The notes beneath the pieces are model-generated. The model ran no database searches. It had not been told where the DNA came from and saw nothing but the letters and a program-made list of their open reading frames with translations. Source: Haloferax marinisediminis (GTDB lineage Archaea; Halobacteriota; Halobacteria; Halobacteriales; Haloferacaceae). From it: a stretch of 64,000 nucleotides of DNA. The stretch is from positions 186,001-250,000 of the forward strand of contig NZ_WKJP01000004.1 in assembly GCF_009674585.1 (NCBI RefSeq), written 5' to 3'. This document shows positions 3,703 through 29,913 of the stretch, piece after piece. Both the position numbers and the translations under genes were made by a program. Position 1 is the first letter of the stretch. Every line of letters begins with the position of its first letter.

Positions 3703-5490
3703 ATGAGTAGTCTTCACCAGAACGGTAGACCCGTAGCCGTTTCACCGGCGAGCGCTACCGAAGACGAACCAGTTCCACGGTTCCCTCACGCGAACTGTAT
3801 CGCCGTTCGGGCGATGGCGAACGTTCTCGGTAGTTCTCTCGGCCCTCGCTCTCACGATAAACTCGTCGTCAATCAACTCGCGAGCCAGACAGAACCGGTG
3901 AACCGAGGAGATGCACCTGTCGACGACTTCACGGTGACAGGAGACGGTGCAACACTCCTCGAAAAACTCCCAGTCGAACACCCGATTGCGCCTATCGTCC
4001 GTCGCATCCTCGGGCCAGAACGGCCCGGTGACACGGACATCGAAGGGCAAGACATCCCCGATGGTGTCACTTCGGCCGTCGTACTGACGGGGGCGCTTCT
4101 CGACGAGGCAGAGAACCTCATCGACAAAGGGCTTCACCCCCACGATGTCAGAGAAGGCTACGCAGTCGCCGTCGAAACAGCGTTAGACGTTCTCTCCGCT
4201 CAGACACGCCTGCTCTCGTCGTTCGACGACCAACGAGACGTCGAGCGGGCAGTCGCACGCTCGGCGATGACGGGAAACGATATCGGCGACCTCGCTGAGA
4301 CGTGGGCAGGGCTTGCAGTCGATGCGGTCGACGACATTGGCCGTCCCACAGAGAAATCCTTCGTCGTCCGGTGTCTCGGCGACGGTGAACTGACTTCGTC
4401 GAGACTCGTTCGTGGGGCAATCCTCGACAGGAACACTCGGGCGAACGACGAGATGCCCAGACGGGTCGAAGACGCGACAGTGCTCCTTCTCGACGGTCAC
4501 ACGACTGGTGGGCTTATCGACCCCAAGTGGGAGGAGGATGCTGTCTTCGACCTGCAGTCTCCTGAACAGTTGAAAGAAGTCCGCGAGCTCTACGCGTCTC
4601 GTCGCCGAGCGCTGGTCGACCACTACGTCTCGCTCGGCATCGACGTGGTCGTCACTCGCCTCGGGATAAACGGTGAGTACCAACGACTGCTGGTTGACGC
4701 CGGCATTCTCGGGATTCGTTCTGTCAGTCCGCTCGAGATGAAGCAAGTTGCACTCGCGACCGGTGCGAGCCTCGTTCAGAATCCGACTGACGTCGAAGCC
4801 AGTGACCTTGGCCACGCCGGTGTCGTTTCTATCGAACGAACGTCTCCTCGGCGGGGTCGCCGGAAGAACCGCTACATGACCGTGTTCGACGAGTGTGACG
4901 GGGCGAACTCTGTTACGATGGCCGTCCACGGCGTCTCGGGACAACTCGCAGACCAGGCAGCGACAGAAGTTCGGAAGGCAGCGGCCGCGGTGGCAGCGAG
5001 TAGAGGACTCGGGTCCGCACGACCGGGTGTGGTGCCGGGGGCGGGGGCAATCGAACTCCAGATGGCCGAAGCAGTCCGTGACCGTGCGACCCAACTCGAC
5101 TCACGTGCCCAACTCGCCGTCTTCGCATTTGCGGACGCCTTACAGGAGGTCGTCGCCGCGCTCGTTCGGAATGCTGGCTTCGACGCGCTCACCGTCCTCG
5201 CTGACCTGCGTGCTGCACAGGTCGGCGGCGAGATGGATGCTGGGTTCGTCCTTCCAGCAGGTGAGGTTTCCAGTGCGACGGACGCTGGTGTCTTCGACCC
5301 AGTGGCGTACAAACACCGAATGCTCGTCAGTGCAAGCGAAGTGGCGAACCTCATCCTCCGTGTCGACGATGCCATCGACGCCACATTCACCAAAGAACCC
5401 CTCGGGCCGGACGACGTGATTTACGACGACCGAGCTGAGAAACATCTGGATTACCTCGAAGAGAATCCCGGCACACGCTGGGACAAATAG
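3703..5490 (+). CDS. Divergent TCP-1/Cpn60 (thermosome-like) protein, probably ATPase-defective
   Basis: 595-aa protein aligning by eye along its whole length with group II chaperonin subunits. The matching landmarks are LGPRSHDKL at 46 (thermosome LGPKGMDKM), GDGATLL at 80 (NDGVTIL), AMTGN at 188 (AMTGK) and PGAGA at 445 (PGGGA). The nucleotide-handling residues are altered. The GDGTT motif reads PDGVTS at 119-124, and the conserved catalytic Asp of the intermediate domain falls in an alanine run (about 427-430). It also has an extra N-terminus of about 27 residues, insertions near 56-75 and 103-118, and no Gly-Met tail. A true thermosome is a cytosolic ATP-driven folding chamber; this copy may be a structural paralogue, a dedicated chaperone or a scaffold. 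It lies between the hydantoinase and deacetylase genes, all in one direction. The family is certain; the function is unknown. Confidence 0.82.
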   Translation: MSSLHQNGRPVAVSPASATEDEPVPRFPHANCIAVRAMANVLGSSLGPRSHDKLVVNQLASQTEPVNRGDAPVDDFTVTGDGATLLEKLPVEHPIAPIVRRILGPERPGDTDIEGQDIPDGVTSAVVLTGALLDEAENLIDKGLHPHDVREGYAVAVETALDVLSAQTRLLSSFDDQRDVERAVARSAMTGNDIGDLAETWAGLAVDAVDDIGRPTEKSFVVRCLGDGELTSSRLVRGAILDRNTRANDEMPRRVEDATVLLLDGHTTGGLIDPKWEEDAVFDLQSPEQLKEVRELYASRRRALVDHYVSLGIDVVVTRLGINGEYQRLLVDAGILGIRSVSPLEMKQVALATGASLVQNPTDVEASDLGHAGVVSIERTSPRRGRRKNRYMTVFDECDGANSVTMAVHGVSGQLADQAATEVRKAAAAVAASRGLGSARPGVVPGAGAIELQMAEAVRDRATQLDSRAQLAVFAFADALQEVVAALVRNAGFDALTVLADLRAAQVGGEMDAGFVLPAGEVSSATDAGVFDPVAYKHRMLVSASEVANLILRVDDAIDATFTKEPLGPDDVIYDDRAEKHLDYLEENPGTRWDK

Positions 5491-8099: not shown

Positions 8100-9917
8100 T
8101 CAGGCAGACCGGAGCTCTGCGGTTGCTCCCACGTCGAGTTCACCGTCTTCGATGACGACACCGTAGTTTTCTCGGGCTTCTTCGACAGAGACGAGTCCAT
8201 CGAGGTAGTCTTCGTAGACCTGTTCAGAGGGTCGTTCGTGTGGGTCACCGTAGCCACCGCCACTCGCCGTTTTGATGAGAACTCTGTCGCCTGCTTCGAA
8301 TTTGTACCCGGACTCTTTCGAGTTGAGGTCGATGACTTCTCCGTTTGCTTTGATGTGCTTGAGGTCACCGTGTGTCCCCTCGCCACCGCCGAACAGACCG
8401 TGTGGACGGTAGGTGTTTCCGTCTCCTTCCATCGTCATCACCGCGTTCGTCAGGAAGGTCGACTCACGGACGATACCGTGTCCTCCACGGTGTCTGCCGG
8501 CGCCGTGGCCGTCCTCTCGGAGACTGTAGTGCTCGACACGCATCGGATGTGAGAGTTCGATGTCTTCGACTGGCCGGTTCTTCGTGTTGTGGACGAGTGC
8601 ATCGACGGCGTCGAGTCCGTCGGCGGCCGGTCGTCCGCCGTACGACCCTTCGTTCACTTCGAGGTACACCCAGTACTCGCCTTCGTCGTTCGTTCCACCG
8701 TAACTGACGAAGTACACCTGTCCGCACGTGCCGGCGCACACTTTGTCGGGAATCGCTTCGGCGAGCGCCTGGATGATGAGGTCACTCATCTTGTCCACTT
8801 GGTTGATGCGAGCGAACGCCGACGTTGGTGGCGTCGGGTTGAACATACAGCCCGGTCTCGCTTTCGGGTGTACCGGTTCGAACGTCCCGGAGTTCTGTGG
8901 GAGATACTCGTCGCGGACGAACGTATCCATCAGTATCGACCGAATCGTGAAGTAGATACAGACGTCTGTCGACCCGTGGAACGGGATGTTGTATCCGGTT
9001 GGCGTCTGGTCGGCCGACTTGCTCATGTCGACGGTGATGTCGCTCCCATCGACGGTCACCTCGACTGCGATTTTCAGACGCTTCCCACGGTTGCGGCCGT
9101 CGTCGTCGAGGTAGTCTTCTGCGTAGTACGTTCCGTCGGGAATCTTCCGAATCTCGTTGCGGAGGAGCGCCTCGGCGTAGTCCATGAGCGCCTCGCCCGC
9201 CTGCTGAATCTCTTCGAGACCGTACTTCTCGACGAGTGCGAGATATCGGTCTTTTCCGACGTTACACGAGGAAATCTGGGCTTGGAGGTCGCCGATGACC
9301 TCACGTGGCGTTCGAACGTTGTCTTGGATGAAGTTCCATATCTCGTCTACCCGCTCGCCCTCGTCGTACACTTTGGTCGCACGGAAGAGGCTTCCCTCTG
9401 CGTACATGTCTTCGAGGTCGATGGCAAGTCCGGGTGTCGCAGACCCGATGTCGAGGTGGTGCGCAGTGTTGGCCGCCCACGCGATGTGTTCTCCGTTGTA
9501 GAAGATGGGCACCGCAACCGCGATGTCGGGTGAGTGACTCGCTCCGTAGTGTGGGTGGTTGTGGATGAATACGTCACCCTCTTTGATTGCGTCTTCTCGT
9601 TCGATGCCGCGCTCTTCGAACGTTTTGTACATCCCGTCGAGATACCCGATGAGTGACCCGACGTGCATCGGTGTGGAGTCACTCTCACAGAGTTCGCGGC
9701 AGTCGGTCGTGAAGATGCCTGCACCCATGTCTTCGCTCTCTCGGATAATCGAGGAGTACGACGACCGGATGAGTTTGTAGGCCATCTCCTGGGCGATGGT
9801 GTCGAGTTCTCCGCCGATGACTTGCATCGTCACCGGGTCGATATCTCGCTCGCGGAGGATGTCCGCTGCGCTCGGTTCGTACGTGCTGTCGTCGCTATCG
9901 TGGCTTTCAGTACTCAT
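8100..9917 (-). CDS. hyuB: Hydantoinase B/oxoprolinase family subunit (first pair)
   Basis: 605-aa HyuB-type subunit. Recognisable segments are DPVTMQVIGGELDTIAQEM near the N-terminus, the family block around FIHNHPHYGASHSPDIAV (about 113-130, putative metal ligands), GLAIDLEDMYAEG, and a C-terminal GGHGIVRESTFL region followed by SGGGYGDP near the end. HyuB forms a complex with HyuA; together they hydrolyse or carboxylate a cyclic amide or ketone with ATP (N-methylhydantoinase, 5-oxoprolinase, acetone or acetophenone carboxylase). Its start lies one base beyond the hyuA stop codon, so the two are translationally linked. The real substrate is not readable from the sequence. Confidence 0.93.
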   Translation of the reverse strand: MSTESHDSDDSTYEPSAADILRERDIDPVTMQVIGGELDTIAQEMAYKLIRSSYSSIIRESEDMGAGIFTTDCRELCESDSTPMHVGSLIGYLDGMYKTFEERGIEREDAIKEGDVFIHNHPHYGASHSPDIAVAVPIFYNGEHIAWAANTAHHLDIGSATPGLAIDLEDMYAEGSLFRATKVYDEGERVDEIWNFIQDNVRTPREVIGDLQAQISSCNVGKDRYLALVEKYGLEEIQQAGEALMDYAEALLRNEIRKIPDGTYYAEDYLDDDGRNRGKRLKIAVEVTVDGSDITVDMSKSADQTPTGYNIPFHGSTDVCIYFTIRSILMDTFVRDEYLPQNSGTFEPVHPKARPGCMFNPTPPTSAFARINQVDKMSDLIIQALAEAIPDKVCAGTCGQVYFVSYGGTNDEGEYWVYLEVNEGSYGGRPAADGLDAVDALVHNTKNRPVEDIELSHPMRVEHYSLREDGHGAGRHRGGHGIVRESTFLTNAVMTMEGDGNTYRPHGLFGGGEGTHGDLKHIKANGEVIDLNSKESGYKFEAGDRVLIKTASGGGYGDPHERPSEQVYEDYLDGLVSVEEARENYGVVIEDGELDVGATAELRSA

Positions 9918-9918
9918 A

Positions 9919-12021
9919 TCAGTCTCCCTTCTGCAGTTCGATGGACCCGTTGGCCAGCACAGTTGCCGTCCAACCGGGATGTACGACCACCGTGCTGTCG
10001 AACTCGTCGACGATGGCCGGGCCGGAGATTACGTTTCCAACCTTCAGTTGTTCGCGGTCAAATCTCGAGACAGTCATCTCTGCCGGTGCGTCGGACGTAC
10101 CGAAGTACACGGTCGCCTCGGTCGTCTGGGCCGCCGAGGGGTCTTCGTCACCCTCGTCGAGCGTCGCCGGGACGTAGGATTGGATGTCGCCGACGGCCGT
10201 CACACGCAGGTTGAGAAGTTCGACCGGGTCCTTCTCGAAGTAGTGGCCGTACTCTGTCTCGTGTTTCTCCTCGAATCGTTCGCGGACTCGCGCGTGCCAG
10301 TCGCCATCGGTGCCGTCGAAGTCGACGTTCAACTCGTAGCCCTGTCCCTCGTACAGACAATCGACAGACTGACGGAACGTCCACTGCGATTCGTCGATTT
10401 CGTCTCGCTCGAGTTGGGCACGACCACGAGCGACCAGTTCGTCGAATGCCTCGTCGATGTAGTTCCCGTCGACTTCGTCGAGTGGGCTACTCACCGTCTG
10501 TTGGTAGTCGTACTTGACGTTCCCCGTCAGAAGTCCTCGTGCTGAGGCGATACCGGGAGATGGTGGGATGAGCACGGTACCGACTTCGAGTTCGTCGGCG
10601 ATGCTTGCGGCGTGCATCGGACCGGCACCTCCGAACGCGACAATCGTGTACTCACGTGGGTCGTACCCGCGTTGGACAGTCTGTTCGCGGATGGCGCGAT
10701 ACATGTTCGTGTTCGCCACTTCGAGTGTGGCGAGGGCGGCCCGTTCGGGTGTCTCGAATCGGGCTTGCTCGGCGCGGTCGCAGAGTTGTGTCTGAAGCGC
10801 GTCTCGCGAGAGGCTTGGGTCGAGGTCAAGGTTTCCACCGAGGAACGTCTGGGGGTCGATTCGACCCAGAACGACTTGTGCGTCGGTCGTCGTCGGTTGG
10901 TCGTTCCCTCGTGCGTAACAGGCTGGCCCGGGGTTTGCGCCGGCACTCTTCGGACCGACGTTGAATCCCATTGCACCGTCGAACCAGGCGATAGACCCGC
11001 CACCCGCACCAATCGTCGCGATGTCGAGCATCGGCGAAATCGTTGGGTAGCCACCGACAGTACTGTCACGGGGGTCGCGTTCGAGGACACGGCCGGGGAT
11101 AACTGAGATGTCGGCGCTCGTTCCGCCCATGTCCAACATAATGAGGTTCGGTTGACCGACGTTGTTCCCTTCGAACTCAGCAGAGAGAACGCCTGCAGCA
11201 GGCCCAGAGACGAGCGTCGTCACCGGCTTCTCAGCGACGTTTTGTACACTCGCCATCCCCCCGTTCGACTGCATAATGAGAACCTCGGCGTCGAACCCTT
11301 CCTCTGCGAGGCGTTCTTGGAGACGGTTGAGGTACGTAGACATCACGGGCTCGAGGCGTGCGTTGATCGCCGTCGTCGTAAACCGCTCGAATTCTCGGAA
11401 CTGGGCCACGACGTCGCTCGACGTCGAGACGTGAATGTCCGGATAGTGTTCGAGAATCAGCTCTTTCGTTCGGTTTTCGTGGTCACGGTTGAGGTACGAG
11501 TGAAGATAACAGACTGCGATAGATTCGATGCCGTCGTTTACGAGTTCTTCTGTCGCCTGCAGGACTTCGTCCTCGTCGAGTGGGGTGATAACCTCCCCGG
11601 GTGGATGGATTCGTTCTGTTACTTCCTTCCGGTGTCGTCGTTTGACGATTGGATTCTCTTGCCACGGGATGGTCTGCTGGAGAGAGAAACTGTGTGGCTT
11701 GCGGTGTCGTCCAATGTGGAGGACGTCGCGGAATCCTTTCGTCGTCAATAGACCTGTCTTTGCACCTTCGTTCTCGATGAGTGCGTTCGTTGCCACGGTT
11801 GTCCCGTGGAGAATTTGGTCCACTTCCGACGGCTCGATATCTGCAATTTTACATACTTCAGTGATGCCAGTGACGGTCGAGACGGACGGGTCGTCGGTCG
11901 AGGGTGTCTTGAAAATATATTCGTCGTCCCCTGCGACGAGGATGACGTCTGTATTCGTACCACCAACGTCAACACCGACACGGATTCCATTACCACTATT
12001 GCTATTGCTATGCATACCCAT
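9919..12021 (-). CDS. hyuA: Hydantoinase A/oxoprolinase family subunit (first pair)
   Basis: 700-aa HyuA-type subunit with an ASKHA (hexokinase/actin-like) nucleotide fold. The N-terminal phosphate loop is in VGVDVGGTNTDVILVA (about 15-30). Other family blocks are HGTTVATNALIE (about 80-90), VSGPAAGVL (about 265), MLDMGGTSADISV (about 290-305), AGGGSIAWFD and a GGAGPMHA motif near 480. It uses ATP to activate the cyclic amide in the HyuAB complex. It begins with ATG at 12021; a second ATG two codons later is equally possible. The next 12 or so residues (Asn/Ser/His-rich) are poorly conserved in the family. It diverges from the PH/SHOCT gene, and the 104-base gap carries its TATA box. Confidence 0.93.
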   Translation of the reverse strand: MGMHSNSNSGNGIRVGVDVGGTNTDVILVAGDDEYIFKTPSTDDPSVSTVTGITEVCKIADIEPSEVDQILHGTTVATNALIENEGAKTGLLTTKGFRDVLHIGRHRKPHSFSLQQTIPWQENPIVKRRHRKEVTERIHPPGEVITPLDEDEVLQATEELVNDGIESIAVCYLHSYLNRDHENRTKELILEHYPDIHVSTSSDVVAQFREFERFTTTAINARLEPVMSTYLNRLQERLAEEGFDAEVLIMQSNGGMASVQNVAEKPVTTLVSGPAAGVLSAEFEGNNVGQPNLIMLDMGGTSADISVIPGRVLERDPRDSTVGGYPTISPMLDIATIGAGGGSIAWFDGAMGFNVGPKSAGANPGPACYARGNDQPTTTDAQVVLGRIDPQTFLGGNLDLDPSLSRDALQTQLCDRAEQARFETPERAALATLEVANTNMYRAIREQTVQRGYDPREYTIVAFGGAGPMHAASIADELEVGTVLIPPSPGIASARGLLTGNVKYDYQQTVSSPLDEVDGNYIDEAFDELVARGRAQLERDEIDESQWTFRQSVDCLYEGQGYELNVDFDGTDGDWHARVRERFEEKHETEYGHYFEKDPVELLNLRVTAVGDIQSYVPATLDEGDEDPSAAQTTEATVYFGTSDAPAEMTVSRFDREQLKVGNVISGPAIVDEFDSTVVVHPGWTATVLANGSIELQKGD

Positions 12022-13969: not shown

Positions 13970-15118
13970 ATGGGTGCCGTAAACATGAGTGAGAATGCCA
14001 TATCTATCGTCTCACTCGAAAAGTCATTTTCCAACGAACAAGTTCTCAAAGGGGTAGATTTCTCGATCGAACCCTCGGAACTCTGTGTCATTGTCGGACC
14101 GAGTGGGAGTGGAAAGTCGACCCTCCTCAAGTGTATCGCTGGTCTCGTCTCCTTCGACAGAGGGGAGGTACTGATTGATGGGGCGAGCGTCGGTAGTATC
14201 CCAGTCGAAAAGCGAGACCTCGGCTACGTATTTCAGGACTTCGAGGAACGTCTGTTCCCGCATATGACCGTCGGTGAGAACGTCGCGTTTGGCCTTCGCC
14301 AGTCTGAAGAAAACTTCAGCGACGACGCAATCCAGCAGAAGATCGACGAATCGCTGGAGTTGCTCGCCATCACGGAGACGAAAGACACTCTCCCTTCGGA
14401 ACTCAGTGGTGGGCAGCAACAACGGGTCGAACTCGCACGAAACCTCGTCCGTGGGTGTGACATCATGCTCCTCGACGACCCACTAGCTGACCTCGACTAC
14501 AAACTTCAAAAGCGGATGGAGCTCGAGATTCGACGAATCCACGAGACGCTCGGAAGCACGTTCGTTTACGTCACCCACAATCAAGACCAAGCGCTCAAAC
14601 TCGCCGACAAACTCGTGGTCATCAATCAGGGAATGATCGAGCAGATTGGGACACCAGACGAGGTGTATCAGAACCCTGCGACAGCGTTCGTCGGTCGATT
14701 CATCGGTGACTCAGACCCGCTTTTAGGCGAGGTCGTCGGTACCGACGGTGCGAACGTTCGTGTCGACACGCCAGTCGGCGAAATCGTCGCAAAGCCACGC
14801 GGCGATACTCCGGACGTGGGGACGGAAGTTATGATACTCGTCAGACCTGAGGACATAACCATCGGTCAGGGGACTGCTGAACTGGACAACGACCTGCCGG
14901 CGACAGTCCAAGGGCGGACCTACACCGGGGAGCGGACCGAATTCACAGTGAGACTCGACGGTGACGCCGAGGACTTCCAGGTCGTCGTCAGTGGGAACGT
15001 TCCGCTCGAAGCGTTCGGGAACCGGACGAGAATTGGCTGGAACGCAGACGAGGGCGTCGCCTACGATACCCTCAGTGTGGTCGAGACTGTGACTGTCGAC
15101 GACCTCATGGAGGTGTAA
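13970..15118 (+). CDS. ABC transporter ATPase 1, with Asp in place of the catalytic Glu
   Basis: 382-aa ATPase of the spermidine/putrescine/iron/maltose-type importer class, with a C-terminal TOBE regulatory region (about 250-370). Counting from MSENA at 13985, the Walker A is GPSGSGKST at 38-46 and the Q-loop is FQDF near 84. The signature LSGGQQQR is intact, and an H-loop His is present in YVTHNQ. The Walker B block reads IMLLDDPLADLD: the residue after the Walker B Asp, normally the catalytic Glu, is Asp. This is the change seen in degenerate sites of asymmetric ABC pairs. It is followed after two bases by a second, canonical ATPase, so the two probably form a heterodimer serving the permeases at 20306 and 25043. 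ATG 13985 is an alternative start. Confidence 0.9.
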   Translation: MGAVNMSENAISIVSLEKSFSNEQVLKGVDFSIEPSELCVIVGPSGSGKSTLLKCIAGLVSFDRGEVLIDGASVGSIPVEKRDLGYVFQDFEERLFPHMTVGENVAFGLRQSEENFSDDAIQQKIDESLELLAITETKDTLPSELSGGQQQRVELARNLVRGCDIMLLDDPLADLDYKLQKRMELEIRRIHETLGSTFVYVTHNQDQALKLADKLVVINQGMIEQIGTPDEVYQNPATAFVGRFIGDSDPLLGEVVGTDGANVRVDTPVGEIVAKPRGDTPDVGTEVMILVRPEDITIGQGTAELDNDLPATVQGRTYTGERTEFTVRLDGDAEDFQVVVSGNVPLEAFGNRTRIGWNADEGVAYDTLSVVETVTVDDLMEV

Positions 15119-15120
15119 TC

Positions 15121-16317
15121 ATGTCTAACGCAAACCTCGACGACAAGACTGAACCGAAACAGCAAGCCACCATCGACGACCGAGAGAACGTGCTCAAGGT
15201 CGAGGGACTCACCAAAATCTACCCCGATGGCACCCTCGCAGTCGACGATATCGACTTCCAGATAAAAGCCGGCGACTTCTGTGTCATCATCGGTCCATCC
15301 GGTTGTGGTAAGTCGACGACGCTGCACTCACTCGTCGGAAAGATTCCCCCAACAGAAGGGAAAGTCATCCTCGACGGAAAAGACATCACGCACGCGCCAA
15401 CCTACGAGCGTGATATCGGTCTCGTGTTCCAGGACTTCCAGCTGTTCCCCCACCTGACGGTCGAAGAGAACATCATCTACGGGCTCAAGCGGATGGACCT
15501 TCCAAAGGACGTTATCGACGAACGTCTCGAGAACGTCCTCGAGATGATGCAGCTCCACGAACTCCGGGCGCGACCGCCGAAAGAACTGTCTTCTGGGCAG
15601 AAACAGCGGGTCGCACTGGCACGGAGTCTCGTGTTAGAGCCGAAACTCCTGTTGCTGGACGAACCGCTCGGGGACATGGACTACAAACTCCAAAAGCGAA
15701 TGGAGCGCGAACTCCTTCGCATCCACCGCGAACTCGACACGACGTTCGTCTACGTGACGCACGACCAGACGCAAGCGATGCGCCTCGCAGACCAGGTCAT
15801 CGTGATGAACGGTGGAAAAATCGAACACAGCGCACCTGTCGAAGAGGTCTACAACGAACCGAACACTGCCTTCGTTGCGGCGTTCGTCGGCGATTCGAAC
15901 ATGTTCGACGGTGAAATCGTCGGTCTCTCCGAGGACGAATCGGTCGCGACAGTGCAGACCTCGTTCGGCGAGTTCACCGTTTCGACCGCAAATCTTCACT
16001 CGCCACCCGCCGACATCGTCGGCAAGCGAATGCCCTTTGCGGTGCGTCCGCAGTTCGTCAAACTCGGTGGAGACACCGATAACACGCTCGAATGTCGCGT
16101 CGAAGACGTCATCTACCAGTCCGGCAGTGGGACGCAGGTCATCCTGTTCGCCGAGACGGACGAGGGTGAAGAAGAGATTCAACTGAAGTCAGAAGACTAT
16201 CTCGAAGTCGACGAAGACCGCGTCACGGTTGGATGGGACACCGAGAACACTATCATTCTCGAACGGACGAGTGTCGTCGATGGCATCGACCTCGACACCG
16301 ATATCCTCGGGAAGTAA
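15121..16317 (+). CDS. ABC transporter ATPase 2, canonical catalytic site
   Basis: 398-aa importer ATPase with all catalytic elements: Walker A GPSGCGKST (about 60), Q-loop FQDFQ, signature LSSGQKQR, Walker B LLLLDEPLGDMD with catalytic Glu, and H-loop in YVTHDQ. A C-terminal TOBE-like regulatory domain follows (about 260-395), as in PotA, FbpC and MalK. The first 20 residues are an acidic/Lys extension. It starts two bases after the stop of ATPase 1, so it is almost surely co-transcribed. No permease is adjacent; the likely partners are the PotB/PotC-like permeases and binding protein further right in the island. A T-rich stretch (CGTTTTTGC near 16350) may end the transcript. Confidence 0.92.
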   Translation: MSNANLDDKTEPKQQATIDDRENVLKVEGLTKIYPDGTLAVDDIDFQIKAGDFCVIIGPSGCGKSTTLHSLVGKIPPTEGKVILDGKDITHAPTYERDIGLVFQDFQLFPHLTVEENIIYGLKRMDLPKDVIDERLENVLEMMQLHELRARPPKELSSGQKQRVALARSLVLEPKLLLLDEPLGDMDYKLQKRMERELLRIHRELDTTFVYVTHDQTQAMRLADQVIVMNGGKIEHSAPVEEVYNEPNTAFVAAFVGDSNMFDGEIVGLSEDESVATVQTSFGEFTVSTANLHSPPADIVGKRMPFAVRPQFVKLGGDTDNTLECRVEDVIYQSGSGTQVILFAETDEGEEEIQLKSEDYLEVDEDRVTVGWDTENTIILERTSVVDGIDLDTDILGK

Positions 16318-16439: not shown

Positions 16440-17681
16440 ATGACAATCCGGTTAGATAGAGAGCGGTTCGTGGCGACGATGAAAGAGCAGGCCGAAATCG
16501 GTGCCACCGACGGTGGCGGCCTTCACCGCCTCACCCTGTCTGACGACGACAAGGAGATTCGTGATTGGTTCGCAGTGCAGATGGAAGAGGAGGGCCTCGA
16601 CATCCGAATCGACGAATTCGGCAACATGTTCGGTCGACGCGAGGGAACCGACCCCGATGCCAAGCCAGTTCTCGTCGGGTCACACCTCGACTCACAGCCA
16701 TATGGGGGGATATACGACGGTGCTCTGGGTGTCATCGGTGCGCTCGAACTCATCAGGACTCTCAACGACGAAGACGTCGAGACGACCCACCCCGTCGAAA
16801 TCGTCAACTGGACCAACGAAGAGGGGTCTCGATTCCAACCGGCGATGCAGGGAAGCGGTGTCTGGGCAGGAGCCCACTCGCTGGAAGAAGAGTACGCGAA
16901 GACGGACGCTGACGGAAAGGTGTTCGAAGAGGAACTGGACCGAATTGGGTACAGAGGCGACGTCCCAGCAGAGCCACAAGAAGCGTACGAAGCGTACCTC
17001 GAACTACACGTCGAACAGGGGCCGTACCTCGAAGAGAACGGAAAAGAGGTCGGCGTCGTCACCGGAATCGTCGGCTTCACGTGGGGTGCAGTAACCTTCT
17101 ACGGGGAGGCCGACCACTCAGGCCCGACGCCGATGCATTACCGGAAGGACGCACTCGTCGCGGCTGCGGATGTCATCACCCAGATTCGACGGATTCCGAG
17201 CACGCTCGGTGAGCGGACCGTCGGGACGACTGGCTACGTCGACGTGAAGCCGAACTCCATCAACATCATCCCCGACGAGGTGACGTTCACGTGGGGATTC
17301 CGCGACCCAAGCGACGACGTCATCGAAGAGGCGTATCAGCGCGTCCTTCAGGAGGCGGAATGGGCGGCAGAACGCGAAGGAATCGACTGGGAGTGGGAAG
17401 AGCGGATGCGTGCGCCTGCAGTCGAATTTGCTGACCAGTGTGTCGATGCGGTCCAATCGGCAGCAGATGCCCTCGAGTTAGACAGCATGCGTATCTTCAG
17501 CGGTGCAGGTCACGACGCCACGCACATGCACAGTGTCTGTGATACGGGGATGGTGTTCGCCCCGAGTGAGAACGGGAAGAGCCACAACGAATCCGAATAT
17601 ACGAGTTGGGACGACTGCTACGCGGCGGCGTCGACACTTGCGAACGCTGCGGTGACTCTCGCAGGCGGTGATGCGCAATGA
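16440..17681 (+). CDS. N-carbamoyl-amino acid hydrolase/allantoate amidohydrolase (M20 family)
   Basis: 413-aa M20-fold zinc hydrolase of the HyuC/AllC group, which removes the carbamoyl group from N-carbamoyl amino acids or allantoate, releasing CO2 and ammonia. The metal ligands are in place: H82 (GSHLDS), D93 (YDGALG), E127/E128 (NEEGSRF), H190 (ELHVEQGP) and a C-terminal His in GAGHDATHM. The dimerisation-domain His226 is in ADHSGPTPM. The length matches the family (about 410). The hydantoinase at 2236 would make its substrate. Its last codons overlap the next gene by four bases (ATGA), so they are translationally coupled. Confidence 0.93.
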   Translation: MTIRLDRERFVATMKEQAEIGATDGGGLHRLTLSDDDKEIRDWFAVQMEEEGLDIRIDEFGNMFGRREGTDPDAKPVLVGSHLDSQPYGGIYDGALGVIGALELIRTLNDEDVETTHPVEIVNWTNEEGSRFQPAMQGSGVWAGAHSLEEEYAKTDADGKVFEEELDRIGYRGDVPAEPQEAYEAYLELHVEQGPYLEENGKEVGVVTGIVGFTWGAVTFYGEADHSGPTPMHYRKDALVAAADVITQIRRIPSTLGERTVGTTGYVDVKPNSINIIPDEVTFTWGFRDPSDDVIEEAYQRVLQEAEWAAEREGIDWEWEERMRAPAVEFADQCVDAVQSAADALELDSMRIFSGAGHDATHMHSVCDTGMVFAPSENGKSHNESEYTSWDDCYAAASTLANAAVTLAGGDAQ

Positions 17682-20305: not shown

Positions 20306-21151
20306 ATGTCAACAAAAGCCGCGCGGACGAGCGAGGCAACCCAGGGGTCTGGCCTCGCTTCGTTCGTCGAACGAATCAACATAAAGCACGTCCTCATCGC
20401 GTACTTTGCTCTTGCAGCGCTGTACATCTACCTCCCGATTATCTCCATCATCGCGTTCTCGTTCAACTCTGGGGGGCTCACGTTCCCGTTCGTCGAGTTC
20501 ACCACCAGATGGTACTCTGAACTCTTAGCGACGGACGCGATGGTCGAGGCGGTTGGACGGTCACTGCAACTCGCAGTCGTGGTGATGATCATTACGACGA
20601 TTCTGGGAACGGCAGCGGCGCTCGCGTACCGCTATGACTTCTGGGGACAGCGTGGGCTGTTGTTCCTGCTCATCATCGGTATCATTACGCCGGGAATCAC
20701 CTACGGTGTCGGTGCGACCCTGTTCTTGAACGAGCTGCTCGGGCTCAGCAAAAGTCTCTGGTTGGCCGTCCCCGTGCACGTGGTGTGGACGCTTCCGTTC
20801 GCGGTTATCGTCTTGCTCGCGGGGTTCCCACCGAACCTCGCAGAGAACGAGGAGGCCGCACGCGTGATGGGTGCCGACAACATCACGGTGCTCCGGCAGA
20901 TTATCCTTCCACAAATCGCACCGACAGTGCTCGGCGCCGCCGTGTTCGCGTTCACGCTCTCGTACAACGAAGCGACGCGTAGTCTCCTCTTGCTGGGGAA
21001 CGAGAACACGATGCCGCTGGAGGTCTTCTCTATCGCATCGGCGACTCGGGCAACCCCCGACCTGTTCGCACTGGGAAGCATCACGACGATTGCCTCGACG
21101 CTTCTCATCGCCATCGCTGGCATTCTCGTCTTCCGTGGACGGAACAGCTAA
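20306..21151 (+). CDS. ABC transporter permease (PotC type)
   Basis: 281-aa inner-membrane permease of the binding-protein-dependent importer class, with about six hydrophobic helices: YFALAALYIYLPIISIIAF, a helix around VVMIITTILGTAAAL, one near LLFLLIIGIITPGI, and so on to the C-terminal LLIAIAGILVF. The EAA loop that contacts the ATPase is visible as ENEEAARVMGADNITVLRQI (about 180-200), with the conserved Glu-Ala-Ala and Gly. It resembles PotC, the second permease of spermidine/putrescine systems. Its partners, the PotB-like permease (25043) and binding protein (23576), lie 2.4 kb away beyond three minus-strand genes. Confidence 0.92.
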   Translation: MSTKAARTSEATQGSGLASFVERINIKHVLIAYFALAALYIYLPIISIIAFSFNSGGLTFPFVEFTTRWYSELLATDAMVEAVGRSLQLAVVVMIITTILGTAAALAYRYDFWGQRGLLFLLIIGIITPGITYGVGATLFLNELLGLSKSLWLAVPVHVVWTLPFAVIVLLAGFPPNLAENEEAARVMGADNITVLRQIILPQIAPTVLGAAVFAFTLSYNEATRSLLLLGNENTMPLEVFSIASATRATPDLFALGSITTIASTLLIAIAGILVFRGRNS

Positions 21152-21189: not shown

Positions 21190-21600
21190 TCACTCGGTGA
21201 TGGTTATTTTCTGCACTCCGTCGCGTAAGGTCCGCACTTCGAGCGCTGCGAGCTCTTCGCGGGTGGCATCGAGCATTCCCACGTGATTTCCGGCGAGTTC
21301 ACCGGCCGGACTCTTGAAACACGTGGGCCCACATGCGATGAGTATCTCCTGTTCGTTCCGATACCCGGGGTACAGGAGTACGTCACCGCGAGATGGATAG
21401 ACTGTGTGGTTCTCTCGAGGAACATCGCCGAGGTCTTCGTCGTCGATGTTCACCCAGACCGCGTACCCGCTCCAGCGGACGTGCATTAGCTCCGACTCGA
21501 GTGGAAGGAGAGAGCGAAGTACCCGGACAGACTCGGGGGCTTCGTCTTCGAGCAACGTCATGGTGTAGGACTCGTCGCCGATGGTGAGTGTGAGCGTCAT
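21190..21600 (-). CDS. DUF3830 family protein (cyclophilin-like fold)
   Basis: 136-aa protein matching DUF3830, a small beta-barrel family thought to have a cyclophilin-like fold. Conserved-looking segments are SVRVLRSLLPLESELMHVRWSG (split around residues 25-45), VPRENHTVYPSRGDVLLYPGY (about 75-95) and GNHVGMLDATREELAALE near the end. The biochemical role is not established; family members occur in amino-acid and amide catabolic clusters. The ATG at 21600 is chosen; it lies five bases beyond the stop of the upstream SDR gene, so the two are one transcript. It converges on the PotC-like permease, with a T-tract (ATTTTTC, about 21171) between. Confidence 0.82.
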   Translation of the reverse strand: MTLTLTIGDESYTMTLLEDEAPESVRVLRSLLPLESELMHVRWSGYAVWVNIDDEDLGDVPRENHTVYPSRGDVLLYPGYRNEQEILIACGPTCFKSPAGELAGNHVGMLDATREELAALEVRTLRDGVQKITITE

Positions 21601-21605
21601 GGTGG

Positions 21606-22373
21606 TTACCGGGCCGTCCACCCGCCGTCGACACTCAGAATGTGACCGGTGACGAAGTTGCTCTCGTCGCTCGCGAGGAAGAGTGCGGCATCGGCGATGT
21701 CTTCGGGTTGACCGAAACGTGGCCACGGGGTCGACGCTTGCCAGTCCGCCAGTAGCTCGGGGTCGTTCTCACGCCACTCTGCGTTCTGGGCGGTCTCGAT
21801 GATACCGGGGGCCAGTGCGTTCACGTTGATCTCTTCTGCAGCGTAGTCGAGTGCCATCTGCCGTGTGAGGTTGGATACTGCACCCTTCGACGCACAGTAT
21901 GCCCCGCTGTTTCCAGCTCCGACGAGGCCCAGAATCGACGAGAGATTGATAATTTTCCCGTTGTCGCTCTCCCGGAGGTGTGGGAGTGCCAGCTTACAGC
22001 AGAGGAACAGTCCTCTGAGGTTCACGTCCATGATTTCGTCCCATTCGTCCAGCGGGGTCTCGTCGACGGTGTACTGGTAATAGATACCCGCGTTGTTGAC
22101 GAGGATATCGAGGCCACCGAACTCCGAGACGGTGGTGTCGATTGCAGACTGAATCTGCTCGGGGTCGGTTACATCCATCTCCACGAACGTGTAGTCGGCC
22201 CCGACTTCGTCGAGTTTGTCGAACACCGACCGCTCCGTATCGAGTTTGGGGTCCCGCCTGACGTCAGCGACGACGACACTCGCTCCTTCTCGTCCGAACG
22301 TTGCTGCGATTGCATTACCGATTCCAGAACTCGCTCCCGTCACGAGAGCGACTTTGCCCGCCAATCGAGACAT
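21606..22373 (-). CDS. Short-chain dehydrogenase/reductase (SDR), second copy
   Basis: 255-aa classical SDR with TGASSGIGNAIA at about 11-22, NNAGIYYQY, the catalytic Ser in NLSSILG, YCASKGAV (Tyr/Lys) and the C-terminal SDESNFVTGHILSVDGG. It is only moderately similar to the SDR at 19483, so it is not a recent tandem duplicate. The start is the ATG at 22373, with nine less likely codons upstream. It lies between the asparaginase and the DUF3830 gene in one minus-strand series, suggesting an asparaginase-SDR-DUF3830 operon. The substrate is unknown. Confidence 0.9.
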   Translation of the reverse strand: MSRLAGKVALVTGASSGIGNAIAATFGREGASVVVADVRRDPKLDTERSVFDKLDEVGADYTFVEMDVTDPEQIQSAIDTTVSEFGGLDILVNNAGIYYQYTVDETPLDEWDEIMDVNLRGLFLCCKLALPHLRESDNGKIINLSSILGLVGAGNSGAYCASKGAVSNLTRQMALDYAAEEINVNALAPGIIETAQNAEWRENDPELLADWQASTPWPRFGQPEDIADAALFLASDESNFVTGHILSVDGGWTAR

Positions 22374-23575: not shown

Positions 23576-25003
23576 ATGTCACGCGGTATCAGTAGACGTA
23601 ACTTCATGTTGGGCCTCGGCGCAACATCAGGAACGATGGCACTAGCAGGTTGCACTGGTGGTGGCGAAAACGGCGGGGGTTCCGGCGGCGGTAATGGAAA
23701 CGGTGGCGGCGGCGGTGGCGGTGACAGTACGACTACTTCTGGTGACTCGGGTGGTGCCGCTGGCGAACGCCCAATGCGCTGGATGGGTCCGGCGTGGGCC
23801 GTCCGCGACGGCCAAAAAGAGAAGTTCACCGAGATGACCGGCATCCCGATTGAGGTGACGACTGCTGACATTCCGACGACGCAGCAGAAGTTGCTCAGTG
23901 GTGACCGCGCGACGTTCGACGCGTTCTCTATCGACAGTTCCGGGGCGGGTGCGATTACCAAGGACAACAACGCCAGTCTAACGGTTCCGAAAGACGCCCT
24001 CGACAAGTGGGACGAAGAGAAGATTACTGAACTGTTCACGAACCCCGGAGAACGTGTGAGCTATCTCGGAGCACAGACCGACACGATTCTCGACGAACTG
24101 TGGGCCGACGACGGGAAGACAGAACTACTCTTCCCCCCACACGTGTACAACTTCGACGCAATCGGCCTGAATCCGAAACTGGTCGACGAGTCGGCAGTCA
24201 GCACGTGGAGTGCCCTGTTCGACCCACAGTACGAGGGGAAAGTGGCGATGGGTGCGACGTCAGCCATCACCATCCCCGAGGCACTGATGCACATGTTGGA
24301 CAACGACATGATCGAAGGGAACGTTGGTGACTTGAACGACCCGACGACGGACCAACTCGACGCTGCAGTCGACTTCCTCATCAAGGAAAAGGAGAGAGGT
24401 CAGTTCCGGTCGACTTGGGTCGCCTACGGGAATTCGGTCAACCTCATGGCCAGTGAAGAAGCAGTCCTCGGTGACATCTGGCAACCAGCCTGTCTCGACG
24501 TTCGCCGGGCAGGAACGCCCTGCACGTACGCGACCATGAGTGCTGGTGTCCAAGGATACCGCTACTGGTACGGTGGCATCGCTCCACTGAACCCCGGTGC
24601 AACGGACCGCAACAACGTCGATATGGTTCACACCCTCATCAACGACGTCCACTACGGCGCGTGGTTCCCCGGATACATCCAGGGCTGGGGCTACTCCGTC
24701 CCGCACTTCCCGAACAAGGAACTCGTCCGTGACGGTTCCGATGATTCTGGTCAGGGAATGGGTCCCGAGTACTACGACTGGGCGTACGAAGGCAAGGCGA
24801 CCTACCAAGCCGTCGACGAACCGGGGCTGTTCGACCCACAACAGTACGAGTGGTCGATGGAGGAAGGTGACCCGAGCTCAGATGGACAGGTGCGCAACAG
24901 TGGCCCTGTGGAAGAACGTATCGACCGTATCGGGTTCTTCCAAATCTGGCCCAGCAACGCCGACTACATGCTCGAACGGTGGAAGGACTTCACGAGCGCC
25001 TAG
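23576..25003 (+). CDS. ABC transporter substrate-binding lipoprotein (PotD-like, Tat-exported)
   Basis: 475-aa extracellular solute-binding protein. It begins with a twin-arginine signal (SRRNFMLGLG, Arg7-Arg8) and a lipobox ending at Cys26 (ALAGC), so it is exported folded and lipid-anchored outside the cell. A Gly/Asn/Ser-rich flexible tether of about 35 residues follows. The mature part looks like the PotD/Fe-binding group of type 2 binding proteins (RWMGPAWAVRDGQ start, LFPPHVYNFDAIGLN, central GKVAMGATSAITIPEA). It is followed after 39 bases by the PotB-like permease. Its ligand is probably a cationic or amide-bearing small molecule; the exact ligand is unknown. Confidence 0.92.
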   Translation: MSRGISRRNFMLGLGATSGTMALAGCTGGGENGGGSGGGNGNGGGGGGGDSTTTSGDSGGAAGERPMRWMGPAWAVRDGQKEKFTEMTGIPIEVTTADIPTTQQKLLSGDRATFDAFSIDSSGAGAITKDNNASLTVPKDALDKWDEEKITELFTNPGERVSYLGAQTDTILDELWADDGKTELLFPPHVYNFDAIGLNPKLVDESAVSTWSALFDPQYEGKVAMGATSAITIPEALMHMLDNDMIEGNVGDLNDPTTDQLDAAVDFLIKEKERGQFRSTWVAYGNSVNLMASEEAVLGDIWQPACLDVRRAGTPCTYATMSAGVQGYRYWYGGIAPLNPGATDRNNVDMVHTLINDVHYGAWFPGYIQGWGYSVPHFPNKELVRDGSDDSGQGMGPEYYDWAYEGKATYQAVDEPGLFDPQQYEWSMEEGDPSSDGQVRNSGPVEERIDRIGFFQIWPSNADYMLERWKDFTSA

Positions 25004-25042: not shown

Positions 25043-25978
25043 ATGTCAGATAGCTACAGACCGACCGCAAGTTCGGAACAAGCAGAACAGCAACCAGAAG
25101 CCGAGAAAGGCATCCTCGAGCGACTGAAAGGGGTGCGTCTCGGAGAGGTTCAGGTACTTGTGGGACCAACTATACTGTGGTTCTTCTTGTTCCTGATCGC
25201 TCCGCTCCTCGTCATTCTCTATTACAGTTTCCTCACCTACTCGAGCTTCAACGTCGAGTTCACGCTGACGCTCGACGCGTGGGAGGCCGTCTTCCAACCG
25301 ACTATCTACGACGTCTTCATCCGCTCGCTGCTCATCGGCGTGGCCGTCACCGTCGTGACGCTCATCTTCGGATACCCGTTAGCGTACTACCTGCGCTTCT
25401 ACACCAGCCAGAATGGGGGTATCCTACTGTTGCTGTTCCTCGTCATCCCATTCTGGACCTCTGCAGTCATCCGTACCATCGGTTGGTACCCGATTCTCGG
25501 AAGGACCGGCGTGGTTAACAAACTCCTCATCCAATGGGGTCTCGTCGACGCGCCGATAGGGGCGCTCCTGTTCTCGCCATTCTCACAAATCGTCGGGTAC
25601 CTCGGGGCCTACATCGTGTTCATGGCAGCACCCATCTTCATCTCGCTCTCACAGATCGACGAGGACCTGCTGGATGCGTCCGAGACGCTTCGCGGTGACC
25701 CAATCGATACGTTCAGATATGTTACGCTTCCATTAAGTCTGCCAGGTGTGGTCATTGGCGTCATCTTCGTGTTCGTTCTCTCTATCGGGGACTTCACCAT
25801 TCCTCAGTTCCTCTCGGGAGGGAAAGGAACGATTACGACGCTCATCTACCTGTCTGTCAACACTGGTCTGAACTACCCCGACGCAGCAGCGCTCTCGATT
25901 GCGCTCCTCGTCATCATCTTCACTGTCGTCTACGTCCTGACGCGGTTCGTCGACATCAGTAAAATCGCACAGAGCTGA
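25043..25978 (+). CDS. ABC transporter permease (PotB type)
   Basis: 311-aa permease with a long, acidic cytoplasmic N-terminus and about six helices, starting at ILWFFLFLIAPLLVILYYSF. The EAA loop is represented by DEDLLDASETLRGDPIDTFR (about 205-225). PotB-like features are the large extracytoplasmic segment after helix 1 and the sequence VIPFWTSAVIRTIGWYPIL. It pairs with the PotC-like permease at 20306, and the ATPases at 13970-16317 supply energy. It is downstream of and close to the binding-protein gene, so probably co-transcribed. A short T/A-rich gap separates it from the convergent second hyuA. Confidence 0.92.
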   Translation: MSDSYRPTASSEQAEQQPEAEKGILERLKGVRLGEVQVLVGPTILWFFLFLIAPLLVILYYSFLTYSSFNVEFTLTLDAWEAVFQPTIYDVFIRSLLIGVAVTVVTLIFGYPLAYYLRFYTSQNGGILLLLFLVIPFWTSAVIRTIGWYPILGRTGVVNKLLIQWGLVDAPIGALLFSPFSQIVGYLGAYIVFMAAPIFISLSQIDEDLLDASETLRGDPIDTFRYVTLPLSLPGVVIGVIFVFVLSIGDFTIPQFLSGGKGTITTLIYLSVNTGLNYPDAAALSIALLVIIFTVVYVLTRFVDISKIAQS

Positions 25979-26033: not shown

Positions 26034-28097
26034 TCAGTTTCCAGTCGTGAGTTCGTAGACTCCCACCTCGTCGAGTCGAGCGTGCCATCCCGGGTTGACG
26101 ACGATCGTCGTCGTGTCTTCTTCGATGATGGCTGGGCCGTCTATCTCGGCGCCCGATGGGACGAGTGACCCATCGTAGACCGTCGTTTCGACGAACCCAC
26201 CTGCTCGCTCGAAGTAGGCGTCGCGTGTCCCGGACTTCGCGTCCGACAGTTCATTGTCGGCCGAGAGAACGCCCTCCACGTCCGGTGGCGTGACCTTCCC
26301 GTAGGCGACGCTCTCGATGTTGATGAGGTCGACAGCGGTCTCTGGTTCGGCGTAGGTGTAGAGTTCCTCGTGGCGTCGGTCGAAGGCTTCACGGAGCTCA
26401 GAGAGCCACTCGTCGGTGATCTCTGTGGCCGGCATCTCGACTTCACACTCTTTGATCTGGTTCTGGTACCGCATCTCGAAGACACGCTTGAGACTGATGT
26501 CTTCGTCGCTGATTCCTTCTGTGCGGAGTTGCTCGACACCTTCGGCCTCCAGCGAAGCGAACACCGCTTCGAGGTCTTCGGGGTCGACGTCGGTGATTGC
26601 AGACGGGTAGGAGGCGAGCGTGTTGTGCTTGTAATCAGAGACGACCTCACCATACGCACAGAGGACGCTCGCCGTCTTCGGGACGAGAACTCTCCCGATG
26701 CCGAGTTCGTCGGCGAGCCCTGTTGCGTGGGCCGGCCCAGCGCCGCCACCACAGACCATCGTAAAGTCACGCGGGTCGTGACCCTTCTCGATGCTCACTT
26801 GGCGGATTCCGTCGACCATCGTCTTGTTGACGATTTCGAGAATCCCAGCGGCAGCAGTCTCGGTGTCGAGGTTGGATTCGTCGGCGATGTGTTCCGCGAC
26901 GGCACGCCACGAGGCGTCAGCGTCGATAGCCATTCGCCCACCGAGGAGTTCAGTCTGGTTGAGGTAGCCGAGGACGACGAGCGCGTCTGTCGTCGTTGGA
27001 CGCGTCCCTCCACGGTCGTAACAGGCCGGACCCGGGTCTGCGCCGGCACTCTCGGGGCCGACTTTCAACACCCCACGGTCCAACTGAGCGATGCTGCCGC
27101 CACCTGCACCGATGGTCTCGACTTGGAGCATCGGAAGTCCCATTCGATACCGCATGAGGTCGAAGTCCTTGCGAATCTCCGTCGACCCATCTCGTGTGAG
27201 ACTGACGTCGAAACTCGTTCCACCCATGTCGATGGTGATGACGTCCTCTGAGCCGAACTGGCGTCCAAGGTGAAGGCCTGCGGCCGGACCACCTGCTGGC
27301 CCGGAGTTGATCGCGTAAGCCGGCCGTGCCCGGAGCGACTCGCTACTTCCGATTCCGCCGTTCGCCTGGATGTACCGAATCTGTCCGTCGAATCCGTGTT
27401 CGTGGAGATACTCGTCGACCTGTTCGACGTAGTTGTCGAGCGTTGGTTTGACGTATGCGTTGACGACAGTCGTGCTCGTGCGGGTGTACTCACGTACCTG
27501 CGGAAGGACAGTCGACGAGACCGATGTGTACACGTCCGGGAGTTCCTCTTCGATGATTTCGACCACGCGTCGTTCGTGTTCTGGATTCGCGAACGACCAG
27601 ACCAGTGAGACAGCGACGGCCTCGACGCCTTCGTGTTTGAACCGTTCGATAGCCTTGTAGACGTCGTCTTCGTGGAGTGGTTCGTACTCGGACCCATCGG
27701 AGAGGATGCGCCCACGAACAGGCATCCGCAGGTAGCGTGGAACGAGCATCTCTGCCATCGGGTACTCCATGTCGTATCGGTGGCCGTCTTCTTTGTGCCC
27801 GAGACGAATCTCGAGTGAGTCCTCGTGACCCGCCGTACAGATGAGGCCGGTCTTCGCACCCGTGTGCTCGATAATCGCGTTCGTCGCCACCGTCGTCCCG
27901 TGGATGATGATGTCGATAGACGAGAGTAGTCCGGCGATGTCGGTGTCGAGGTCGTCGGCGACGAGTTCCAGACCATCACGGACAGCCTGTGATGGGTCTG
28001 ACGGCGTCGATGGGGTCTTGTACACGTTGAGCGTGTCCTCGCCTGAAAGGACGAAGTCGGTGAACGTCCCGCCGCTATCGATTCCAAGCCGGTACAT
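26034..28097 (-). CDS. hyuA: Hydantoinase A/oxoprolinase family subunit (second pair)
   Basis: 687-aa HyuA subunit with the ASKHA phosphate loop LGIDSGGTFTDFVLSG at 4-19, HGTTVATNAIIEHTGAKTG near 72, GPAAGP-like NSGPAGGPAAG near 265, TIDMGGTSFDVSL near 285 and CGGGAGPAHATG near 455. It is ATP-dependent like its family. It differs clearly from the first HyuA (only the family blocks are shared), so the pair probably serves another substrate. In transcript order it follows hyuB, the reverse of the first pair. The junction is TGATG, in which the A of the hyuB stop codon is also the A of the hyuA start. Confidence 0.93.
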   Translation of the reverse strand: MYRLGIDSGGTFTDFVLSGEDTLNVYKTPSTPSDPSQAVRDGLELVADDLDTDIAGLLSSIDIIIHGTTVATNAIIEHTGAKTGLICTAGHEDSLEIRLGHKEDGHRYDMEYPMAEMLVPRYLRMPVRGRILSDGSEYEPLHEDDVYKAIERFKHEGVEAVAVSLVWSFANPEHERRVVEIIEEELPDVYTSVSSTVLPQVREYTRTSTTVVNAYVKPTLDNYVEQVDEYLHEHGFDGQIRYIQANGGIGSSESLRARPAYAINSGPAGGPAAGLHLGRQFGSEDVITIDMGGTSFDVSLTRDGSTEIRKDFDLMRYRMGLPMLQVETIGAGGGSIAQLDRGVLKVGPESAGADPGPACYDRGGTRPTTTDALVVLGYLNQTELLGGRMAIDADASWRAVAEHIADESNLDTETAAAGILEIVNKTMVDGIRQVSIEKGHDPRDFTMVCGGGAGPAHATGLADELGIGRVLVPKTASVLCAYGEVVSDYKHNTLASYPSAITDVDPEDLEAVFASLEAEGVEQLRTEGISDEDISLKRVFEMRYQNQIKECEVEMPATEITDEWLSELREAFDRRHEELYTYAEPETAVDLINIESVAYGKVTPPDVEGVLSADNELSDAKSGTRDAYFERAGGFVETTVYDGSLVPSGAEIDGPAIIEEDTTTIVVNPGWHARLDEVGVYELTTGN

Positions 28098-29884: not shown

Positions 29885-29903
29885 TGAGAATGACACGCAC
29901 ACC

Positions 29904-29913
29904 AATATTATAA
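29904..29913 (-). promoter_or_regulatory. Probable TATA box of the second hyuB
   Basis: The minus strand reads TATAATATT within this stretch, centred about 24 bases before the ATG at 29884. It gives hyuBA a promoter of its own besides any readthrough from the racemase gene. Confidence 0.5.

Follow-up and report, generated by a model that had tools for sequence, protein, structure and literature searches.

A single type I importer of Haloferax marinisediminis is quite likely driven by a heterodimer of two adjacent PotA-like ATPases, referred to as ATPase 1 and ATPase 2, with one of the two ATP sites being degenerate; we infer both the heterodimer, from the joint inheritance of the two genes and the composition of the locus, and the unequal hydrolysis. 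ATPase 1 has an aspartate in place of the catalytic glutamate and a normal LSGGQ signature, ATPase 2 has retained the glutamate and has an altered signature, and this combination (LSGGQ with DDP in ATPase 1, LS[A/S]GQ with DEP in ATPase 2) occurs in 24/24 haloarchaeal loci. The positions given below without a locus name refer to the window, i.e. the whole stretch of 64,000 nucleotides that was analysed.

Two unequal PotA-like ATPases

ATPase 1 is encoded at positions 13985..15118 of the plus strand (with an alternative in-frame ATG at 13970), and ATPase 2 at positions 15121..16317 of the same strand, leaving a gap of 2 bp. The two proteins are 40% identical across most of their length, and the domain models place in each of them an ABC domain followed by a TOBE_2 domain. 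Their best models are of the PotA/PhnT2 type, with scores lying under the curated cut-offs: as compared to the PotA cut-offs of 482 bits (NF006987) and 355.6 bits (TIGR01187), ATPase 1 is short at 288 and 280 bits, and ATPase 2 at 292 and 289 bits. No exporter-type membrane domain was found in either ATPase, the permeases being encoded by separate PotB- and PotC-like genes. The initial annotation, which had described two adjacent and different importer ATPases, is thus borne out, both proteins matching PotA/MalK-type models.

In a profile alignment, the LLDDP motif of ATPase 1 (D164, D165) stands opposite the LLDE of E. coli PotA, placing Asp165 (codon 14477..14479, plus strand; Asp in all 24 loci) on the catalytic Glu of PotA, as had been proposed from the Walker B motif. 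The PDB chain 8y5g_A has a Gln at the matching position. In the 20 rows compared for these motifs, ATPase 1 has kept its Walker A, Q and H residues. A structure alignment also covers 20 ATPase 1 rows, and the AlphaFold model of ATPase 1 (pLDDT 88.7) has E. coli PotA (8y5f_A) as top Foldseek match. The Q-loop stretch Q84-H93 of ATPase 1 (14234..14263, plus strand) is 2 residues longer than that of ATPase 2 and other relatives, the Q-loop spacing being 6 in 23/23 ATPase 1 rows of a 95-row set, and 4 in 24/24 ATPase 2 rows and in 39/48 other rows (the remaining 9 were unparsed).

ATPase 2 has LLDEP at Walker B, with Glu181 (codon 15661..15663, plus strand; motif reading) as the retained catalytic glutamate, and the signature LSSGQ at residues 156-160 (15586..15600, plus strand). 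The earlier description of this second ATPase as canonical consequently holds for Walker B and fails for the signature, the change of which had been overlooked. A PDB profile search with ATPase 2 as the query returned no match at E 1e-80.

Conservation and distribution of the pair

The 24 distinct loci comprise the window, 20 genome loci and those of Haloarcula litorea, Natronorubrum bangense and Halarchaeum sp.; the Halobellus limi locus matches G383 in length and coordinates, and the two enter the count as one. In 23 of these loci ATPase 2 has the signature LSAGQ, and in the window it has LSSGQ. The likeness to asymmetric exporters put forward in the initial annotation is supported, since LLDDP/LLDEP was found in 24/24 loci together with an altered signature in the partner (24/24), which is the arrangement described for such exporters; LLDDP is therefore conserved in the orthologous pairs, and LLDEP in both copies, which had been named as the opposing observation, occurred in 0/24 loci. 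A random Glu-to-Asp variant is rejected, no ATPase 1 orthologue with DEP being present in the 24 loci.

ATPase 1 orthologues (identity of at least 55%) occurred in 7 of the 195 genomes searched in the order, where the next best matches were at most 44% identical, and in 19 of the 391 genomes searched in the class (E limit 1e-78), i.e. in 21 genomes for both searches together. In PLSDB, ATPase 1 was found in 8 haloarchaeal plasmid records at 52-69% and ATPase 2 in the same 8 records at 58-78%, the next matches among those listed being at about 40%. A search of 294 genomes of the phylum gave no orthologue besides that of the window itself, in a sampling that says little on other classes.

In one genome, G376, the ATPase 1 gene is frame-broken, with LSGGQ and DDP both lying in the second piece. 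The frame breaks of this genome affect ATPase 1, AllC, PotB and the chaperonin discussed below (L148 5334-6460, 8016-9247 and 16915-17807; L174 6854-8616), which suggests an assembly error or a decaying locus in G376 only.

Both motif changes are rare. A DNA pattern running from the signature to a Walker B with DDP matched 5 places in 194 Halobacteria genomes, 5/5 inside ATPase 1 orthologues, and its DEP version had 116 matches in a set of 21 genomes. Being strict, the pattern covers a part of the ABC ATPases, the DEP version matching 5 places in the present genome vs 67 PF00005 matches. The corresponding LS[A/S]GQ...DEP pattern, where Ser stands for TCN codons, matched 3 places in 145 Halobacteria genomes, 3/3 inside ATPase 2 orthologues. 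As a background, we used 80 family-wide loci with no close orthologue among the matches listed: the Walker B Glu was present in 87/87 of their motif-readable ABC cassettes, among the matches listed, the Walker B counts being unbiased and the signature counts being biased by the generic signature pattern. When the genomes behind 50 bacterial loci were scanned for the DDP pattern, there were 2 matches: a rhizobial importer (see below) and a Streptomyces half-transporter that includes a membrane domain and is exporter-like by sequence, i.e. a member of the class in which DDP would be expected. The Haloferax genome has another tandem ATPase pair (L001 3262-5557), which served as a negative control and has two canonical copies; by eye, the permeases beside it look sugar-type. 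Single PotA-like relatives in L030, L034 and L035 (genomes G181, G118 and G082) were seen to contain one in-frame TGA each.

Common origin and purifying selection

In a tree of 95 ATPases, ATPase 1 (23 rows, SH-aLRT 100) and ATPase 2 (24 rows, SH-aLRT 99) are sister clades within a joint clade (SH-aLRT 100) that leaves outside the 48 other haloarchaeal and bacterial relatives; this tree comes from a quick search with SH-aLRT support only, retains the motif columns and has several long branches elsewhere. Its rows included 24 of the 80 bacterial-scan rows taken at random (a few of them archaeal), and neither L167, a copy of L154, nor the frame-broken ATPase 1 of L148. The sister clades trace the pair back to a PotA-like gene that was duplicated once, long ago, both changes being fixed before the haloarchaeal loci diverged. 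Hence, the 24/24 count reflects one origin long kept, not 24 events, and at this level the location of both changes in the same site is a one-in-two outcome. The weight of the same-site arrangement is in its match to the exporter pattern and in its persistence. Both ATPases are under purifying selection: in seven pairs each, dN/dS was 0.08-0.22 (ATPase 1) and 0.07-0.14 (ATPase 2). A decaying ATPase 1 gene was rejected as a candidate in view of this selection and of the motifs kept.

One set of permeases and binding protein per genome locus

The other putative parts of the importer are a binding protein and two permeases, all encoded on the plus strand of the window. The PotC-like permease (20306..21151) matches NCBIfam PotC with an E value of 3e-38 (under the cut-off) and PF00528 above the cut-off; the PotB-like permease (25043..25978) matches NCBIfam PotB with an E value of 7e-44 (under the cut-off) and PF00528 just under it (23.9 of 26.4 bits); and the extracellular solute-binding protein (23576..25003; PF13416, 1.6e-10) has by eye a Tat- and lipobox-like N-terminus. 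One binding protein, one PotB and one PotC lie near the pair in 20/20 genome loci, PotB being in two pieces in G376; PotC was inside the first fetched stretch in 16 genome loci, and for the remaining 4 it was in the stretch that follows. Haloarcula litorea has a compact gene order (permease, ATPase 1, ATPase 2, permease). In four annotated records and in the window, the two ATPase genes overlap or are separated by 1-2 bp. A separate transporter for each ATPase, which the initial annotation had set as the opposing case, was not seen near the pair in these 20 loci; two separate transporters are rejected on the single PotB, PotC and binding protein near the pair in each genome locus.

In an alignment of 18/21 binding proteins from the window and the genome loci, that of the window shares 59-85% identity with the other 17, so that the substrate is probably of the same kind throughout. 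The catabolic neighbours vary and include hydantoinase/oxoprolinase pairs, an AllC-like amidase, an asparaginase, DUF3830 and a CoA transferase (the last by eye). In the window, these include a HyuB/HyuA-type hydantoinase/oxoprolinase pair (8100..12021, minus strand; Pfam) and a hydantoinase/carbamoylase-family, AllC-like amidase (16440..17681, plus strand), neither of which is universal. From such hydantoinase and amidase neighbours, the substrate is probably a nitrogen-containing organic compound; the AlphaFold model of the binding protein (pLDDT 44.6) gave no substrate clue. A second HyuA/HyuB-type pair, labelled by eye, lies at 26034-29905 on the minus strand and flanks the importer genes together with the 8100-12021 pair. 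A DUF3830 gene (21190-21606 in the window; also in L141, L153, L158 and others) is present in 12/25 fetched stretches of this locus family.

A proposed motor with one degenerate site

In an ABC dimer, each ATP site is built from the Walker A, Walker B and H-loop of one subunit and from the signature of the other one. Owing to this composite geometry, Asp165 of ATPase 1 and the changed signature of its partner would come together in one site of a heterodimer. We propose that a motor composed of ATPase 1 and ATPase 2 would operate with the binding protein, PotB and PotC as follows. Site A (Walker A, Walker B and H-loop of ATPase 1; signature of ATPase 2) would be degenerate, with Glu replaced by Asp and LSGGQ by LSAGQ or LSSGQ, and it may bind ATP and hydrolyse it slowly or rarely. 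Site B (Walker motifs of ATPase 2 with Glu181; LSGGQ of ATPase 1) would be of the consensus type and do the work. By analogy with exporters, about one ATP would probably be used per cycle, site A staying closed on ATP. According to PMC7756269, every degenerate site encoded in the human genome has a changed signature, and Glu-to-Asp ranks second in frequency among the changes and goes with slow residual hydrolysis; recent studies suggest that the hydrolysis of one ATP suffices to reset such exporters (PMC7756565).

Several points go against a heterodimer with a degenerate site. First, Asp is a mild change, and the sites with Asp seem to be still slowly hydrolytic (PMC7756269). Second, in the asymmetric ATPase pair of rhizobia, it is the opposite site that has the altered signature. 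Third, judging from E. coli DppDF, the asymmetry of binding and the asymmetry of motifs need not coincide. In a rather unlikely alternative, the two ATPases do form a heterodimer and both sites hydrolyse usefully, Asp165 and the Ala or Ser of the signature being tolerated tuning changes. Asp165 retains a carboxylate, none of the 20 ATPase 1 rows compared has lost a Walker A, Q or H residue, and both ATPases of the DppDF heterodimer are able to hydrolyse (PMC12136057). Tolerated changes of this sort are at odds with the finding that neither of them occurs elsewhere in the same motif context (194 and 145 Halobacteria genomes, respectively) or is reverted in any of the 24 loci.

Less probable still, ATPase 1 or ATPase 2 might act as homodimers, either on shared PotBC permeases or with a transporter of its own for each of them. 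The E. coli PotABC structures contain two PotA chains, and some MalK-type ATPases, such as MsmX, serve several permeases. Against such homodimers, the locus has two distinct ATPase genes; homodimers of ATPase 1 would have Asp in both sites and those of ATPase 2 an altered signature in both; there is one set of permeases and binding protein per locus (20 genome loci); and ATPase 1 is accompanied by ATPase 2 in every locus read, the 8 plasmid records with the one also having the other. As for an ATPase 1 that is decaying, or has become a regulatory subunit no longer powering transport, the loss of its catalytic Glu and its frame break in one genome (G376) are outweighed by its dN/dS of 0.08-0.22 in seven pairs, its retained nucleotide-binding motifs and the broken frames of AllC, PotB and chaperonin that point to a problem in G376 only, making this the most improbable explanation of all.

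Comparison with known systems

One of the closest known counterparts of the proposed asymmetric importer is the spermidine importer PotABC(D) of E. coli (8y5f/8zx1), the best solved sequence and fold match for ATPase 1, which shares with it DYKL after the D-loop and the PotB- and PotC-like permeases. It differs in having one ATPase vs two in the haloarchaeal locus, the PotA equivalog and subfamily cut-offs are unreached by the haloarchaeal proteins, and the substrate apparently differs.

The heterodimeric or full-length ABC exporters with a degenerate site (TAP, TM287/288, BmrCD, TmrAB, MRP1) resemble the haloarchaeal pair by a Glu-to-Asp change in one nucleotide-binding domain (NBD) that shares its composite site with a changed signature of the partner NBD, the assignment of residues to each exporter being partly general background. 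Unlike them, the haloarchaeal system has importer permeases, a binding protein and separate ATPases with a C-terminal TOBE.

Among importers, RbsA and NupO have one degenerate ATP site, as reported in PMC11466899; they are type II importers with both NBDs in one chain, whose second Walker A has no Lys. DppD/DppF and OppD/OppF are importers with two different ATPase subunits, like the present one. In E. coli DppD and DppF, the motifs are functional and both proteins hydrolyse ATP, although only one of them bound the ATP analogue (PMC12136057).

The bacterial control revealed another asymmetric importer, an alphaproteobacterial one of the sugar type, in Sinorhizobium, Shinella, Gemmobacter and a Rhizobiales genome (L202 1093-2208 and its neighbour; also L203, L204 and L205; 3/20 plasmid matches were fetched). 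It likewise has two adjacent ATPases, one of them with DDP. In 4/4 loci read, ATPase A has LSNGQ, DDP and VTQD, and ATPase B has ISGGQ, DEP and VTHD; thus, unlike the haloarchaeal pair, the DDP copy also carries LSNGQ and VTQD, the partner has ISGGQ and the permeases are sugar-type. With the altered signature lying in the other site here, two-ATPase importers are asymmetric in more than one way, which weakens any claim that the same-site arrangement is required.

A linked chaperonin paralogue

The most surprising part of our findings is that the importer is linked to a diverged group II chaperonin, a thermosome paralogue encoded at positions 3703..5487 of the plus strand (PF00118, 3.7e-97). 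Its scores lie below the curated thermosome cut-offs (306 vs 450, 304 vs 671 and 290 vs 400 bits), and it is 32-34% identical to the three ordinary thermosome genes of the same genome. A TCP-1/cpn60 chaperonin gene is present at 24/24 importer loci, the G376 copy being frame-broken. A chaperonin search in 391 genomes of the class (E limit 1e-90) returned the same 19 genomes as the ATPase 1 search of 391, the two draws being alike in the genomes listed; this search followed the detection of the link, and genomes that are related do not count as independent.

In the alignment, the column of the catalytic chaperonin Asp, which we take to be the one in EDSL, QDAL and NDSV of the three thermosomes, contains D in 3/3 thermosomes of this genome; among the 24 paralogues, 22 have K there (Lys425 in the window, codon 4975-4977) and 2 have Q. 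The GDGTT motif was found in 0/23 readable paralogues, one further paralogue having a gap there. Judging from these residues, the locus would pair an ATPase with a weakened catalytic residue with a chaperonin that has lost one. We know of no ABC system paired with a chaperonin of this kind. As a guess, the chaperonin-like protein may help to assemble or stabilise the importer complex. We tentatively suggest, while leaning slightly the other way, that a dedicated non-hydrolysing chaperonin could be the obligate assembly or regulatory partner of the haloarchaeal importer with two unequal ATPases.

Significance

The view of the initial annotation that one degenerate site is rarely noted in importers needs a qualification: such sites are in print for RbsA and NupO (PMC11466899) and hence already known in importers, and it is the two-gene pair of the PotA/MalK type that is new as far as searched. 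Our literature search, the coverage of which left out most subscription papers, found no recognised degenerate site in a PotA/MalK-type importer pair, and no recognised link of a chaperonin to an ABC importer.

In PMC7756269, the advantage of a degenerate site is regarded as unclear and the origin of the pattern as enigmatic. A two-gene importer motor of PotA/MalK kin with a single conserved degenerate site would make this question testable outside exporters, and it raises the question whether one ATP per cycle is enough for import. In addition, the importer is so strictly accompanied by a chaperonin paralogue lacking the catalytic Asp that this points to a function not so far assigned to degenerate chaperonins in archaea.
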